Below, piece after piece: positions 19,366-23,348 of a DNA stretch of 64,000 bases (its first letter is position 1; each line of letters begins with the position of its first letter). The DNA comes from an uncultured Sphingomonadaceae bacterium. GTDB taxonomy: Bacteria > Pseudomonadota > Alphaproteobacteria > Sphingomonadales > Sphingomonadaceae. Under the pieces are notes generated by a model that worked only from the letters and a program-made list of their open reading frames with translations, was not told the origin of the DNA and ran no database searches. The stretch covers positions 806,001 through 870,000 of the forward strand of contig CANMFX010000001.1 in assembly GCA_947497315.1 (NCBI GenBank), in the 5' to 3' direction. Both the position numbers and the translations under genes were made by a program.

Positions 19366-19440
19366 TGTCGTCATTCTCCACAAGAAAGGCGGCTGATCAT
19401 CGCTGACCGCCGCCTTTTATATGGTTATGCCTGCCGGAAA

Positions 19441-20082
19441 TTACCAGCGGATAAGATGCGGTACGATAAATCTTCCGATCAGAGCACTGACCAGTACCGG
19501 CAGGGTGAACCATAATCCGATATAGTAAATGTCGTTAAACGGGCAGAAAATATTGTAAGCAGCCGCTCCCAGAGCGCCGGATGCGATGCCGACCAGCCAG
19601 CCAGCGCGTTCCGGAGAGGTTGGCGCACCTTGGCGTAACCAGGTGGTCAGACCGCCGCCAATGACCAAAGCTGACATCATGCTGACCGTCAGGCAGCGCA
19701 GACCTTCAGTGGGTCGCAACGCTTCTACTGGCGGCATGTTGATCGCGCTCATAATGGCCGCTGTCAGCGGGAATAGAGCAGCCGTAACCAGCGCCCAAAT
19801 CCAACCGCGATTGAGATTGCCAACACCGGGTCGAGCCATATTGGCCGCTGCAAAAGCCGTTGCAATACCAAGCATCAAGAGCACGCCGCTGCGCAGGAAG
19901 AACATCTGATGCGCCATGCCCATCGCCAGATCACCGCGTACGCCCAAAAAGAAGGCGACACTGGAAGAGACGGCCAACATCAGGATCGCTGTCACCGCCA
20001 TACCGCCTGAAGGTTTCAGGGTACGGACCGGGGCAAGATCATCGACCAGATCATCGATCAGACTATTTGCTACTTCACTCAT
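19441..20082 (-). CDS. nrsF: NrsF family (DUF1109) anti-sigma membrane protein
   Basis: A 213-residue protein with six membrane segments and a short cytoplasmic N-terminus (residues 1-27) that would bind the sigma factor. NrsF proteins hold their ECF partner inactive at the inner membrane; in Caulobacter this controls genes induced by heavy metals, including bufferin operons. Conserved cysteines expected to sense metals are visible at LRCLTVS (about 130) and NIFCPF (about 183). ATG 20082 is two bases after the sigma stop; GTG 20091 is an alternative. Last gene of the bufferin operon. Confidence 0.85.
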   Translation of the reverse strand: MSEVANSLIDDLVDDLAPVRTLKPSGGMAVTAILMLAVSSSVAFFLGVRGDLAMGMAHQMFFLRSGVLLMLGIATAFAAANMARPGVGNLNRGWIWALVTAALFPLTAAIMSAINMPPVEALRPTEGLRCLTVSMMSALVIGGGLTTWLRQGAPTSPERAGWLVGIASGALGAAAYNIFCPFNDIYYIGLWFTLPVLVSALIGRFIVPHLIRW

Positions 20083-20083
20083 C

Positions 20084-20608
20084 TCATTCACTCTCGATAA
20101 GGGCGCTCATTTTCTTGAGCCCCCGATGGATATTTACTTTCACCAGTGATTCCGACTGGCCGGTTTTTGCCGCGGCTTCGGCAATGCTTAATCCTTCAAT
20201 CTTTACCATGGCGATAACATCGGCCTGTTTATCAGGGATCATTCCCAGTAAACGTTCCAAACTCACCTTGGCGGTTACGTCCTCATCCTGTGGATCGGCA
20301 ACCAGTTCTTCATTCAGTTCGCCATGCTCGTGGCGATAGATTTTGCGCAATCCGTCAATCCAGCGATAGCGCCCGATGGCGGCAAGCCAGGGAAGGAACG
20401 CCTTGGTAGGATCATAGCTGGCCCGCTTTTTGTGCAGCGAGATCAACGTTTCCTGCACCAGATCATCGACTTCCGCTGGATTGATCTTGCGCGCATAATA
20501 GCGCCGCAGCCATTTTTCGCACTCGGTCAGCAGACTGGCATAGCATTGCTTGTCGCCGCCCTGCGCCTTGACCATTAAATGACGCAATGTTTCTTCATTG
20601 GCGATCAT
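20084..20608 (-). CDS. sigF: ECF RNA polymerase sigma factor, SigF type
   Basis: A 174-residue sigma-70 family protein with only regions 2 and 4. Region 2 includes DDLVQETLISLHKKRASYD (about 48-66) and the WLAAIGRYRWID segment. Region 4 includes the helix-turn-helix GLSIAEAAAKTGQSESLVKVNIHRGLKK near the end. Its neighbour NrsF is the expected anti-sigma factor. The pair probably drives the operon they lie in, from the promoter at 23151-23179. It follows the DoxX gene by 24 bases. Confidence 0.92.
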   Translation of the reverse strand: MIANEETLRHLMVKAQGGDKQCYASLLTECEKWLRRYYARKINPAEVDDLVQETLISLHKKRASYDPTKAFLPWLAAIGRYRWIDGLRKIYRHEHGELNEELVADPQDEDVTAKVSLERLLGMIPDKQADVIAMVKIEGLSIAEAAAKTGQSESLVKVNIHRGLKKMSALIESE

Positions 20609-20632
20609 GGCTGCTCTCCCCGACGGCCCAGC

Positions 20633-21073
20633 TTAACCCAGTTTCCCGCCGACCAGCTTGTCGAGGGAGAATAGGCCGCCGCCACGCGTAATCAGGACCA
20701 GCGCTAAGGCTACCCAGATAATATGCACGGACCACCAGGCTTCAGGATAGACGAAAAACTGGATGACCAAGGTCATGACTAGCAGCCCGGCCGCGCCAAA
20801 GCGGGTTGCAAGGCCCAATACGAGTAGAATCGGGAAGAAATGCTCGGCATAGGTAGCGATCAAACCGGTGATTTCGGGAAAAGGCATGCCATATTCATCA
20901 CGGAACAGATCGACGGTCAGTTCTTTCATCGTCAGAAAGCTGCCATCTTCGACCTTTGTGCGGGCAGAGCGCCAGAATATGCCAGCCAGTGCCACGCGGG
21001 CAAAGAGGAGCGCGATCGCTTCTGGAAAAGCGCCGCTTACTAGACCAATTGCTTTTTTAATCAGGTTCATCAT
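20633..21073 (-). CDS. DoxX family membrane protein of the bufferin operon
   Basis: A 146-residue protein with four membrane segments and the DoxX-type start of the first helix (LFARVALAGIFWRSARTKV). DoxX genes are regular companions of bufB-bufC operons (sometimes called bufD), where their role is not settled; a part in redox or membrane quinone handling has been suggested for the family. It lies 25 bases after bufC and 24 before the sigma gene. Two adjacent ATGs (21073, 21070) are possible starts. Confidence 0.88.
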   Translation of the reverse strand: MMNLIKKAIGLVSGAFPEAIALLFARVALAGIFWRSARTKVEDGSFLTMKELTVDLFRDEYGMPFPEITGLIATYAEHFFPILLVLGLATRFGAAGLLVMTLVIQFFVYPEAWWSVHIIWVALALVLITRGGGLFSLDKLVGGKLG

Positions 21074-21098
21074 TTCGGTTACCCCGTTAAATCATTCA

Positions 21099-21830
21099 TT
21101 ATATTCTCATTATCACGCCGCTTTGGATCAGCTTTATGATCCTCTCCATTGCAGTGTCTTCACCATCCAGTTCGATGGCTGCTGCCAAAAGGTTACCCAT
21201 TGTTGAAATATTTGCAATTTTTTCCGCAATATCATGCTCTAACTGGGTGAGCAGGTGAAATAGAACTTCGGCTTCTGGGCGTGCGACCATCAGTGCATCC
21301 GGCGTGCCATCTCCTAATTCTGCCAGCTCCGGCGAAAGTGCTCCGGTCAGGTTGACCAACCGCATTGCGGGATGCGCGCCGATCTCAAGGCCGAGAAGGC
21401 TTTCTTCATCCAGTGTCGCAATGTCATTAAGCGCAAGCGGCGTAGCCTCGGCGCTATGGTAGCTTTTGATCCACGCCCATTCTATCCGGGCCAGATCCAC
21501 TTCGGTTTCGCTGAACTCCTGTTTTGCGAGAAAATCCCCAAAATCTGCGGCAATATTGTTCATATCACAGGTCAGGATGTGGTCCTGCTCGATATAATCC
21601 CGGGAAATGGCGTGAAAAGGCTCATGGCCCATATGTTCGTGCAATTTGGGATAGGCGTTTTCGAGCGCGACGAGCCTGGCATGAGAAACGGTATTGGCGT
21701 GAGCCTTCAGGCCCAGAAGTGCACGGTCCGCGCTCTCGCTGAACAGATCATCTGGGAAATGGGCCGGGCCTTTTTGCAGGCAGGCGATGAAGCGAGACTG
21801 GCCGTCAGCTAACGAGGGCATGCTGTTCAT
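21099..21830 (-). CDS. bufC: BufC/HvfC-type partner of the MNIO enzyme (DUF2063)
   Basis: The protein of about 243 residues has the N-terminal DUF2063 'putative DNA-binding' domain of HvfC/BufC (PSLADGQSRFIACL start, then LVALENAYPKLHEHMG) and a C-terminal winged helix-like part. BufC is thought to present the precursor peptide BufA to BufB for modification and is not believed to bind DNA. It overlaps the 3' end of bufB. The start is uncertain: ATG 21842, 21830 or 21821 are all in frame with weak ribosome sites; family N-termini fit the last two best. Confidence 0.87.
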   Translation of the reverse strand: MNSMPSLADGQSRFIACLQKGPAHFPDDLFSESADRALLGLKAHANTVSHARLVALENAYPKLHEHMGHEPFHAISRDYIEQDHILTCDMNNIAADFGDFLAKQEFSETEVDLARIEWAWIKSYHSAEATPLALNDIATLDEESLLGLEIGAHPAMRLVNLTGALSPELAELGDGTPDALMVARPEAEVLFHLLTQLEHDIAEKIANISTMGNLLAAAIELDGEDTAMERIIKLIQSGVIMRI

Positions 21831-22734
21831 CTTGCAAAACATGGCTGTTCAGCACCGTTTCAACTTTTGAAACTTCTGCCATTAACACGCAATATTCGGG
21901 AATATCCGTGTCCCATTCGATCAATGTGGGCTTGGGACCAGCGCGTTTGATGAAGCGTTCATACAGCCGCCAGGTAATATCGCTGACAATCGAGCCATGA
22001 TCGTCAATCAGTAATGGGCCATCGTCATGCTCTTCACGTGCATGGCCAGCAAGATGCATCTCCCCGACAATATCCGGATCAATCGCGTCAACATAGGCTT
22101 CCATGTCCAGCCCGACATTGGTGGCCGTTACTTCGACATTGTTGATATCGAACAACAGTCCGCAACCGGACTGTTTGCACAGCGCAGATATAAAGTCAGT
22201 CTCACTCATCTCATCATCACGGTAGCTGAGATAACGCGACGGGTTTTCGATCAGCATCAGACGTTTCAGCCGATCCTGTACTTTACCGATTTCGGTCGAG
22301 AAATGATCCAGCGCTTCTTTTGTATAGGGAATGGGGAGCAGATCAGGATAGCGATCATGGGCATTGCCGCTCCAGCTGAGATGGTCAGATACCATGGCTG
22401 GTTGGTAGCGATCACAAAGATCTGCGATTTTATCGAGATCATATTCATTGAGCCCGTCAGCCGAACCAAGGGAGAGCCCGACGCTGTGAAAGCTCAATGG
22501 ATAGTCTTCGGCGATGGCGGTCAGCCAACGATGTAGCGGGCCACCATCACCGAAGTAATTCTGCGGATGTACCTCGACCCATCCGGGTTTTTTTGATCCG
22601 ACTTCTTCGGACAATACATCATTATAATGTACTGACTTCAAACCTATGCCACCTGATGGAGGGAGGGAGTGAGGCACAGGCGTCTTCATAACGGACAGAC
22701 CAAAATTTGAGGTTTGAGTAGAGGTAACATCCAC
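21805..22734 (-). CDS. bufB: MNIO-class (DUF692) peptide-modifying enzyme BufB
   Basis: A 309-residue TIM-barrel protein of the multinuclear non-heme iron oxidase family. Iron-ligand candidates are visible in SFHSVGLSLGS, VSDHLSW, LIENPS, FDINNVEV, GEMHLAGHA, DDHGSIVSD and LIEWDTDIP. MNIO enzymes convert cysteines of a precursor peptide into thio-oxazole-type groups; in bufferin systems BufB with BufC modifies BufA so that it chelates copper. It is 57 bases behind bufA, with a hairpin in the gap. The start at 22734 lacks a clear ribosome site; Met16 is an alternative. Confidence 0.93.
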   Translation of the reverse strand: MDVTSTQTSNFGLSVMKTPVPHSLPPSGGIGLKSVHYNDVLSEEVGSKKPGWVEVHPQNYFGDGGPLHRWLTAIAEDYPLSFHSVGLSLGSADGLNEYDLDKIADLCDRYQPAMVSDHLSWSGNAHDRYPDLLPIPYTKEALDHFSTEIGKVQDRLKRLMLIENPSRYLSYRDDEMSETDFISALCKQSGCGLLFDINNVEVTATNVGLDMEAYVDAIDPDIVGEMHLAGHAREEHDDGPLLIDDHGSIVSDITWRLYERFIKRAGPKPTLIEWDTDIPEYCVLMAEVSKVETVLNSHVLQDEQHALVS

Positions 22735-22749
22735 AAAACTTAGCGTAGA

Positions 22750-22781
22750 ATCACGTTTTGCGCCAGAGGTTTGAACGTGAT
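22750..22781. other. hairpin between bufA and bufB
   Basis: ATCACGTT at 22750-22757 pairs perfectly with AACGTGAT at 22774-22781 around a 16-base loop in the 57-base bufA-bufB gap. No T run follows in the direction of transcription (leftwards), so it is more likely an mRNA-processing or stabilising structure than a terminator. It could protect an abundant bufA message relative to the enzyme genes. Confidence 0.6.
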
Positions 22782-22791
22782 CAAAGGGGGT

Positions 22792-23088
22792 TTAACCTCT
22801 CTGCGGTACTGGCTTCTTGTTGCCTTTTTTCGCGGTCAGCGAACCACCGGCTTTAACGCAGGCACCCTTGGCGGTGTATTTCCAGGCATTGCCCTGATAG
22901 TCGGCGGTTGAAGTACCGGCACAGCTTGTGCCTGGTCCTGCGGCACAATCATTCTTGCCCTTCAGCGCGATACCGAAACATTTCTCTTTGGCACCAGCCG
23001 CAACGGCAGTGGTTGGCGAAATAGCAATAGTCGCAGCAGCGGCGAGGGCAGCAGCAGCGGCAGTGGCTTTGATCATGGAGTTGGACAT
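22792..23088 (-). CDS. bufA: bufferin precursor BufA (DUF2282), secreted copper-binding RiPP
   Basis: A 98-residue protein with a signal peptide (alanine-rich helix to about residue 31), directing it to the periplasm. The mature part has exactly four cysteines (37, 48, 56, 77) in the [13 protein letters not shown] ... SCAGTS ... KGACV pattern of the DUF2282/BufA1 family. In Caulobacter such peptides are modified on cysteines by BufB/BufC and sequester copper. The start ATG 23088 has GAGAGG upstream; the longer open frame to 23511 overlaps groES and is not coding. The sigma-F-like promoter at 23151-23179 gives a leader of about 55 bases. Confidence 0.92.
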
Positions 23089-23150
23089 TTGATTTTCCTC
23101 TCTTGGAGATTGGGTAATAGGGGCGAACCTGTCATGCAGGCTCATCATAT

Positions 23151-23179
23151 GTTTCGATGGAAGGACCCGGCTGGTTACA
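23151..23179 (-). promoter_or_regulatory. SigF-type ECF promoter of the bufferin operon
   Basis: Read on the minus strand, TGTAACC (complement of 23173-23179) is followed after exactly 16 bases by CGAAAC (complement of 23151-23156). This fits the GTAACC-N16-CGAA consensus I recall for SigF of Caulobacter. It lies 63 bases upstream of bufA and points into the operon that encodes the sigma factor, making an autoregulatory loop likely. Confidence 0.75.
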
Positions 23180-23321: not shown

Positions 23322-23348
23322 TTAGCACTCGACTCAAGGGAGTGCTAA
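23322..23348 (+). promoter_or_regulatory. CIRCE operator (HrcA binding site)
   Basis: TTAGCACTC at 23322-23330, nine bases, then GAGTGCTAA at 23340-23348: a perfect CIRCE inverted repeat, upstream of groES. It is the operator of the heat-shock repressor HrcA. hrcA itself is not in the window. Confidence 0.98.

Follow-up and report, generated by a model that had tools for sequence, protein, structure and literature searches.

A stretch of 64,000 nucleotides (nt) from an uncultured Sphingomonadaceae bacterium (GCA_947497315.1, contig CANMFX010000001.1, positions 806,001 to 870,000 of the forward strand; this whole stretch is called the window) carries a Buf1-type bufferin operon, bufA-bufB-bufC-doxX-sigF-nrsF. 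Its sequence makes it very probable that the operon is governed by its own ECF16-like extracytoplasmic function (ECF) sigma factor, SigF, acting at a promoter before bufA (P1) and at a second one within bufC (P2), and that the same SigF acts in trans on an unlinked lipoprotein bufferin gene and on the methionine sulfoxide reductase genes msrA and msrB. P2 is predicted to be a dual-coding ECF promoter, its activity being argued from the sites and from their conservation. The operon is confirmed and is of an ordinary kind, and what most deserves attention is the promoter predicted inside bufC, together with the lipoprotein bufferin encoded elsewhere in the genome. The six genes are co-directional and contiguous on the minus strand, from window position 23088 to 19441, with short gaps or overlaps:

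bufA, 22792..23088, minus strand, DUF2282 (Buf1) bufferin precursor, 98 amino acids
bufB, 21805..22734, minus strand, MNIO bufferin maturase
bufC, 21099..21842, minus strand, DUF2063 partner protein
doxX, 20633..21073, minus strand, DoxX-family membrane protein
sigF, 20084..20608, minus strand, ECF sigma factor
nrsF, 19441..20091, minus strand, anti-sigma factor with Cys133 and Cys183
P1, 23153..23178, minus strand, GTAACC-N16-CGAA upstream of bufA, predicted to be the operon's SigF promoter
P2, 21171..21196, minus strand, GTAACC-N16-CGAA within bufC, towards its 3' end, predicted to be a SigF promoter serving doxX-sigF-nrsF
Hairpin 3' of nrsF, 19385..19417, minus strand, possible operon end, from folding energy

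The two SigF sites

The site pattern is the published consensus of Caulobacter SigF promoters, GTAACC-N16-CGAA (PMC3511200). Exactly two perfect copies occur in the window, where 0.08 are expected, and both lie within the operon and on its strand; two perfect sites were found in none of 100 shuffles of the window. P1 ends 64 nt before the start codon of bufA, and P2 ends 97 nt before that of doxX. The original prediction had described the operon as a minimal closed regulatory loop, and the span that it gave, 19441-23179, happens to include P1. Its idea of self-regulation gains support from these consensus sites, but the loop appears to be neither minimal, with P2 inside bufC, nor closed, because the same site stands before the unlinked lipoprotein bufferin gene, msrA and msrB.

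As for sites of the P1 type, GTAAC-N17-CGAA is present at 27 of the 30 bufA-type matches above 60 bits in the genus, the three misses being a stand-alone copy (L145), a degenerate-looking copy in a metagenome-assembled genome (MAG; L147) and a copy cut by a contig end (L148). Among non-redundant bufA or lipoprotein bufA frames with sigF in the locus, 93/105 have the site with N16 spacing, upstream of the open frame or in its 5' part, and 0/105 with N15 or N17. Frames without sigF in the locus have the N16 site in 37 of 80 cases, including the unlinked lipoprotein genes of the genus.

Conservation of the intragenic site as DNA

Genus, family and named loci were pooled into a set of 118 bufC loci, 95 after removal of near-duplicates, and sigF was called linked when it lay downstream of bufC, on the same strand and within 2.5 kb. 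Of the 71 non-redundant loci with linked sigF, 68 have GTAAC-N17-CGAA within the final 260 nt of bufC, always in one codon phase. A recoding null, in which codons are redrawn synonymously from local usage and ancestry is ignored, gives 1.49 expected. The P2-type feature thus counted appears to be common to related genera, and within the genus it is found in all 28 bufC genes.

The codons that make up P2 are kept to an unusual degree. In the genus, CTT is used in 28/28 genes (2.5 expected), GGT in 28/28 (6.1 expected) and TTG in 26/28 (4.8 expected); the wider set has CTT in 52/67 (8.2 expected) and GGT in 52/56 (11.1 expected). When 526 codon columns from the six genes of 70 loci were ranked by synonymous conservation, CTT220 and GGT218 of P2 came first and second, TTG221 sixth and AAC219 fifteenth. 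At five loci (L167, L177, L179, L189 and L195) R, S or C stands in place of the glycine of the encoded Gly-Asn-Leu-Leu (GNLL), and GTAAC is kept there. The TT of CTT falls just outside the Caulobacter consensus, but two ECF16 promoters of Brucella have it too, in GTAACCTTTTT (PMC8315932). Gene overlap was considered as the cause of this codon conservation and rejected, P2 overlapping neither bufB nor doxX; the high columns at bufC codons 12 and 14 do fall in the bufB/bufC overlap, at the other end of bufC.

Targets beyond the operon

The host genome has two DUF2282 genes, one MNIO match (bufB) and one NrsF match. The second DUF2282 precursor (L003 6939-7286, minus strand; G000:C3:415938-416285) is unlinked to the operon and has no MNIO gene nearby; its LSAC box marks it as a lipoprotein, and a perfect site stands 60 nt before its start. 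Across the genus, L[S/A]AC is found in 30 of 31 matches to this lipoprotein bufA, the remaining one being a fragment, and GTAAC-N17-CGAA lies upstream of 22 of the 31.

SigF-type sites are also located before the genes of two exported-looking enzymes of the host, MsrB (L008 1557-2063) and MsrA (L017 1739-2476), at 28-32 and 186-226 nt upstream, respectively. Matches to these enzymes are present in 32 genomes of the genus; 30 loci were examined for each gene, and the site was upstream of msrB in 29/30 and of msrA in 29/30, genome G161 being the sole miss in both. Over the 32 genus genomes TGTAACC-N16-CGAA was counted 286 times, vs 71 for the reversed control.

The host genome has 40 site matches in all, with spacings of N16 (21), N15 (7) and N17 (12), and downstream frames were inspected for 32 of them. 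Genes starting 20-60 nt past a SigF-type site at seven host loci (L016, L014, L029, L152, L013, L032 and L012) are candidate targets; they encode a VTT/FAD oxidoreductase, DUF2147, redoxin and DUF1223 proteins, and three proteins without a family match. The sole PF00174 (MsrP) gene, G000:C2:434646, has no exact site nearby in the host site list, so the msrPQ link of Caulobacter is not seen in this genome.

Identity of the operon genes and their surroundings

All six genes named in the original prediction are present in the single direction it gave, and the DUF2282, MNIO and NrsF profile searches that it proposed each returned a match above the cut-off. Pfam matches were judged against curated cut-offs, and NCBIfam models likewise against their own. 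BufA matches DUF2282 (PF10048) with 77.6 bits (cut-off 22.4), has the four cysteines foreseen, at positions 37, 48, 56 and 77, and has an N-terminus that looks, by eye, like a Sec signal peptide. BufB matches MbnB_TglH_ChrH (PF05114) with 312.1 bits (cut-off 25) and passes the NCBIfam bufferin maturase model MNIO_BufB (NF050167; 339.9 vs a cut-off of 310); it is similar to solved DUF692/MNIO structures, the best being 3bww (9e-36). BufC matches DUF2063 (PF09836) with 40.3 bits (cut-off 27.2) and DoxX its namesake family (PF07681) with 60.6 bits (cut-off 23.6). SigF matches Sigma70_r4_2 (47.6 bits, cut-off 25.7) and Sigma70_r2 (45.5 bits, cut-off 24), and NrsF matches NrsF/DUF1109 (PF06532) with 147.3 bits (cut-off 26.8). 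The bufB and bufC frames overlap by 38 nt, and sigF and nrsF by 8 nt.

Several narrower models stayed under their cut-offs: NCBIfam BufA2 on BufA (28.7 vs 60) and the Hvf metallophore models HvfB (213.6 vs 360), HvfC (25.9 vs 142) and HvfX (56.9 vs 80). The equivalog AntiSigF_NrsF gave 79.4 bits vs 300, and the NrsF of this operon is a relative of that protein outside the narrow equivalog. Its two cysteines belong to a pair that is 46-54 residues apart in 68/68 NrsF frames above 100 bits. The sigma factor is placed as probably ECF16-like by its anti-sigma factor and its promoter motif. As a Buf1-type bufferin cluster the operon is ordinary and belongs to a kind already described. Of 149 genomes sampled from the family, 46 contain DUF2282, as do 31 of 32 from the genus.

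The closest named relative of BufB is that of Sphingorhabdus sp. EL138 (95%; the window's own record was possibly absent from the comparison), and the proteins of Parasphingorhabdus marina and flavimaris match at 80%. These neighbours support the sphingomonad placement, which had been proposed from the sequence.

Downstream of nrsF, the hairpin has a folding energy of -22 kcal/mol for window positions 19384-19440 (z -4.1) and a weak T tail; a simple terminator scan called no terminator at this hairpin. A generic scan for sigma-70 promoters and terminators gave counts at chance level.

On its other side, the bufA operon is divergent from groES-groEL. A perfect inverted element, TTAGCACTC-N9-GAGTGCTAA, which we take to be of the CIRCE type, precedes groES-groEL at window positions 23322-23348. 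In other genus loci with the operon groES adjoins bufA too, with one exception that is cut by a contig end.

Other arrangements are found among sphingomonads. At L153, L156, L157, L159, L160 and similar family loci, bufB is divergent from bufA-doxX-sigF-nrsF, and two divergent SigF-type sites lie between bufB and bufA. At L364 (genome G001, Blastomonas / Sphingomonas ursincola group), NrsF stands beside a second bufA/bufB-like pair, away from the bufC operon, with back-to-back SigF-type sites.

Proposed mechanism and alternative explanations

Envelope stress caused by a metal, probably copper, or by oxidants would be sensed through the two cysteines of NrsF and would free SigF, as Caulobacter and Brucella suggest. 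SigF-RNA polymerase starting at P1 would then yield BufA with its maturases BufB and BufC, and starting at P2 inside bufC it would yield an extra doxX-sigF-nrsF transcript. Through P2, DoxX, SigF and NrsF could be produced without relying on expression of the genes upstream, and sigma output would rise from P1 read-through plus P2. In trans, SigF would drive the exported MsrA and MsrB and the lipoprotein bufferin, which the only BufB of the genome would mature. The copper function and the peptide modification are expected from homology. In its full form the proposal is probable: an ECF16 promoter within bufC, dual-coding and held by selection on the DNA, sets the output of the sigma/anti-sigma pair and DoxX apart from that of the bufferin, and the same sigma factor also controls envelope MsrA and MsrB and a Buf1 bufferin that is anchored in the membrane and matured in trans by the one MNIO enzyme.

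A number of observations weigh against this proposal. Three of the 71 linked loci lack a P2-type site (L319, L341 and L355; the sigF match of L355, at 26 bits, is doubtful). The 68 that have one are not 68 independent events, because the loci share descent, which the recoding null leaves out of account. Loci without linked sigF have the site in 4 of 24 cases, and they are a weak control, since 18 of the 20 site-less ones are distant bufC genes (22-52 bits), mostly of other lineages. An exact site is missing from 9 of the 31 lipoprotein bufA genes. Genome G161 is the only one of the 32 genus genomes without DUF2282 and one of two without NrsF over the cut-off; its joint lack of operon and msr sites speaks for the proposal, being as expected if the sites work only with SigF, although it concerns one MAG. 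The absence of the operon there could be a gap, the MAG being fragmented, yet the upstream regions of msrA and msrB are present and site-free. G161 has two sites in its whole genome, a low total that the incomplete G160 and G164 share. G164 (87% complete) has no NrsF match, yet its msrA and msrB genes retain their sites; either no simple rule holds or this is an effect of its incompleteness. In Caulobacter, sigF was not strongly self-regulated under chromium according to Kohler et al. (PMC3511200); copper raised Caulobacter sigF by a log2 of 2.2-4.7 (PMC8224329).

A standard bufferin operon served by P1, in which the bufC motif is kept for the Gly-Asn-Leu-Leu...Glu of BufC by codons that have drifted little, would account for GNLL in 28/28 genus sequences; the loci do share ancestry, and the motif-less loci without linked sigF are mostly distant. 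It is very unlikely all the same, as CTT, GGT and TTG are minority codons in the loci yet nearly fixed in the genus (ranks 1, 2 and 6 of 526), GTAAC stays in the five loci where Gly has become R, S or C, and the 16-nt spacing is that of the published promoter. The motif may instead be a SigF site mainly for doxX, the membrane partner of the bufferin, with sigF-nrsF passively downstream. Six loci without linked sigF have a close bufC (at least 100 bits), and four of them (L181, L189, L317 and L322, Blastomonas / Sphingomonas ursincola group), all with doxX, keep the site before it and have sigF nowhere within 2.5 kb; two of the four come from genomes, G001 and G095, with NrsF at another place. 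The site is absent from L184 (neither doxX nor sigF detected) and from the contig-cut L315. P2 may thus have doxX as a target no less than the sigma pair. As an account of the site with sigF-nrsF as passengers, this explanation is unlikely, sigF lying behind the site in 68 of 72 non-redundant site-bearing loci and a minus-strand scan calling no terminator between doxX and sigF.

It is also conceivable, if rather doubtful, that the main signal for the operon is an oxidant such as hypochlorite and not copper, the bufferins being one arm of an ECF16 oxidative-repair regulon. Copper is itself able to oxidise methionine, so the copper and oxidant readings are not exclusive. SigF sites stand before exported MsrA, MsrB and redoxin genes in this genome, the Brucella ECF16 system responds to HOCl, and Msr genes are common to several ECF16 regulons (PMC8315932). 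Copper as the signal is favoured by the SigF genes of Caulobacter, which are copper-induced, and by its sigF mutant, which is copper-sensitive (PMC8224329); the two tested genes of that regulon were induced at most twofold by peroxides, paraquat or diamide (PMC3511200).

Bufferins are recent, and the published accounts of their regulation that were found deal mainly with Caulobacter. A conserved in-gene promoter, if true, would indicate how an ECF feedback loop survives with the sigma gene at the end of the operon that it controls, and P2 would be a clean case of codon selection for transcription. The lipoprotein Buf1 without a maturase of its own suggests that one MNIO enzyme modifies both soluble and membrane-anchored chelators, and the site-based regulon would link metal chelation with the repair of oxidised envelope methionines.

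Comparison with known systems

Buf1 bufferins are defined by DUF2282, and their clusters have a core of MNIO, DUF2063 and DoxX genes; sigma factor and NrsF genes have been reported in them (PMC12452194). The present operon shares with those clusters the DUF2282-MNIO-DUF2063-DoxX core, the sigma/NrsF genes and the existence of stand-alone precursors. The main text of that paper uses neither of the words promoter and intragenic, and its one mention of lipoprotein signals concerns about 16% of Buf2. With sigma/NrsF genes in Buf1 clusters published there and the regulon known in Caulobacter (PMC3511200; PMC8224329), the system as such is not new.

Among the closest described counterparts is the SigF-NrsF regulon of Caulobacter crescentus, with its bufferin operons CC3254-3257 and CC2907-2905, which has the same gene families and the same promoter consensus and is induced by copper (PMC3511200; PMC8224329). 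Cys133 and Cys183 of NrsF have the same 50-residue spacing as C131 and C181 of the Caulobacter protein (PMC3511200). A further DUF2282 precursor controlled by SigF, and methionine sulfoxide repair as part of the regulon, are common to the Caulobacter system and the one predicted here. The two differ in that sigF-nrsF of Caulobacter is a unit of its own with an upstream promoter, whereas here the pair ends the operon and a SigF site lies inside bufC; in that dedicated MNIO and DUF2063 genes accompany the second precursor of Caulobacter, whereas its counterpart here is a lipoprotein encoded apart from any maturase gene; and in the site-bearing repair genes, MsrA/MsrB here and MsrP in Caulobacter.

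ECF sigma/anti-sigma pairs beside bufferin-type operons are also described in Sinorhizobium meliloti (RpoE7-EcfR7; PMC6180224) and Cupriavidus (gigPABT-rpoQ-rsqA; PMC10304878), and RpoE7 targets bear TGTAAC...CGAA sites (PMC6180224). The sigma genes of these two systems are divergent from the operon and have their own upstream promoters, that of rpoQ being RpoD-dependent (PMC6180224; PMC10304878). The self-regulated ECF16 system of Brucella, BcrS-AbcS, shares an NrsF-family anti-sigma factor (C129/C179), (T/C)GTAAC-N17-CGAA sites and Msr genes in its regulon, but its target operon, bcrXQP, is of the Msr type and not a bufferin operon, and it responds to HOCl (PMC8315932).

An intragenic ECF promoter has a precedent in the cabp-sigV genes of Caulobacter vibrioides, where a self-activated promoter lies within the 3' coding end of cabp and transcription starts 87 nt before the sigV start codon (PMC13171946). 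That system has an unrelated upstream gene (for a calcium-binding protein), an unrelated sigma factor (SigV) and no bufferin genes; sigV comes next after the promoter-bearing gene, whereas here the site lies two genes before sigF, ahead of doxX. A literature search of partial coverage, with the original bufferin paper outside it and thus no proof of absence, found no intragenic promoter named for any bufferin operon. What the present analysis adds to these systems is the place of the predicted promoter in a bufferin operon and the breadth of its conservation.

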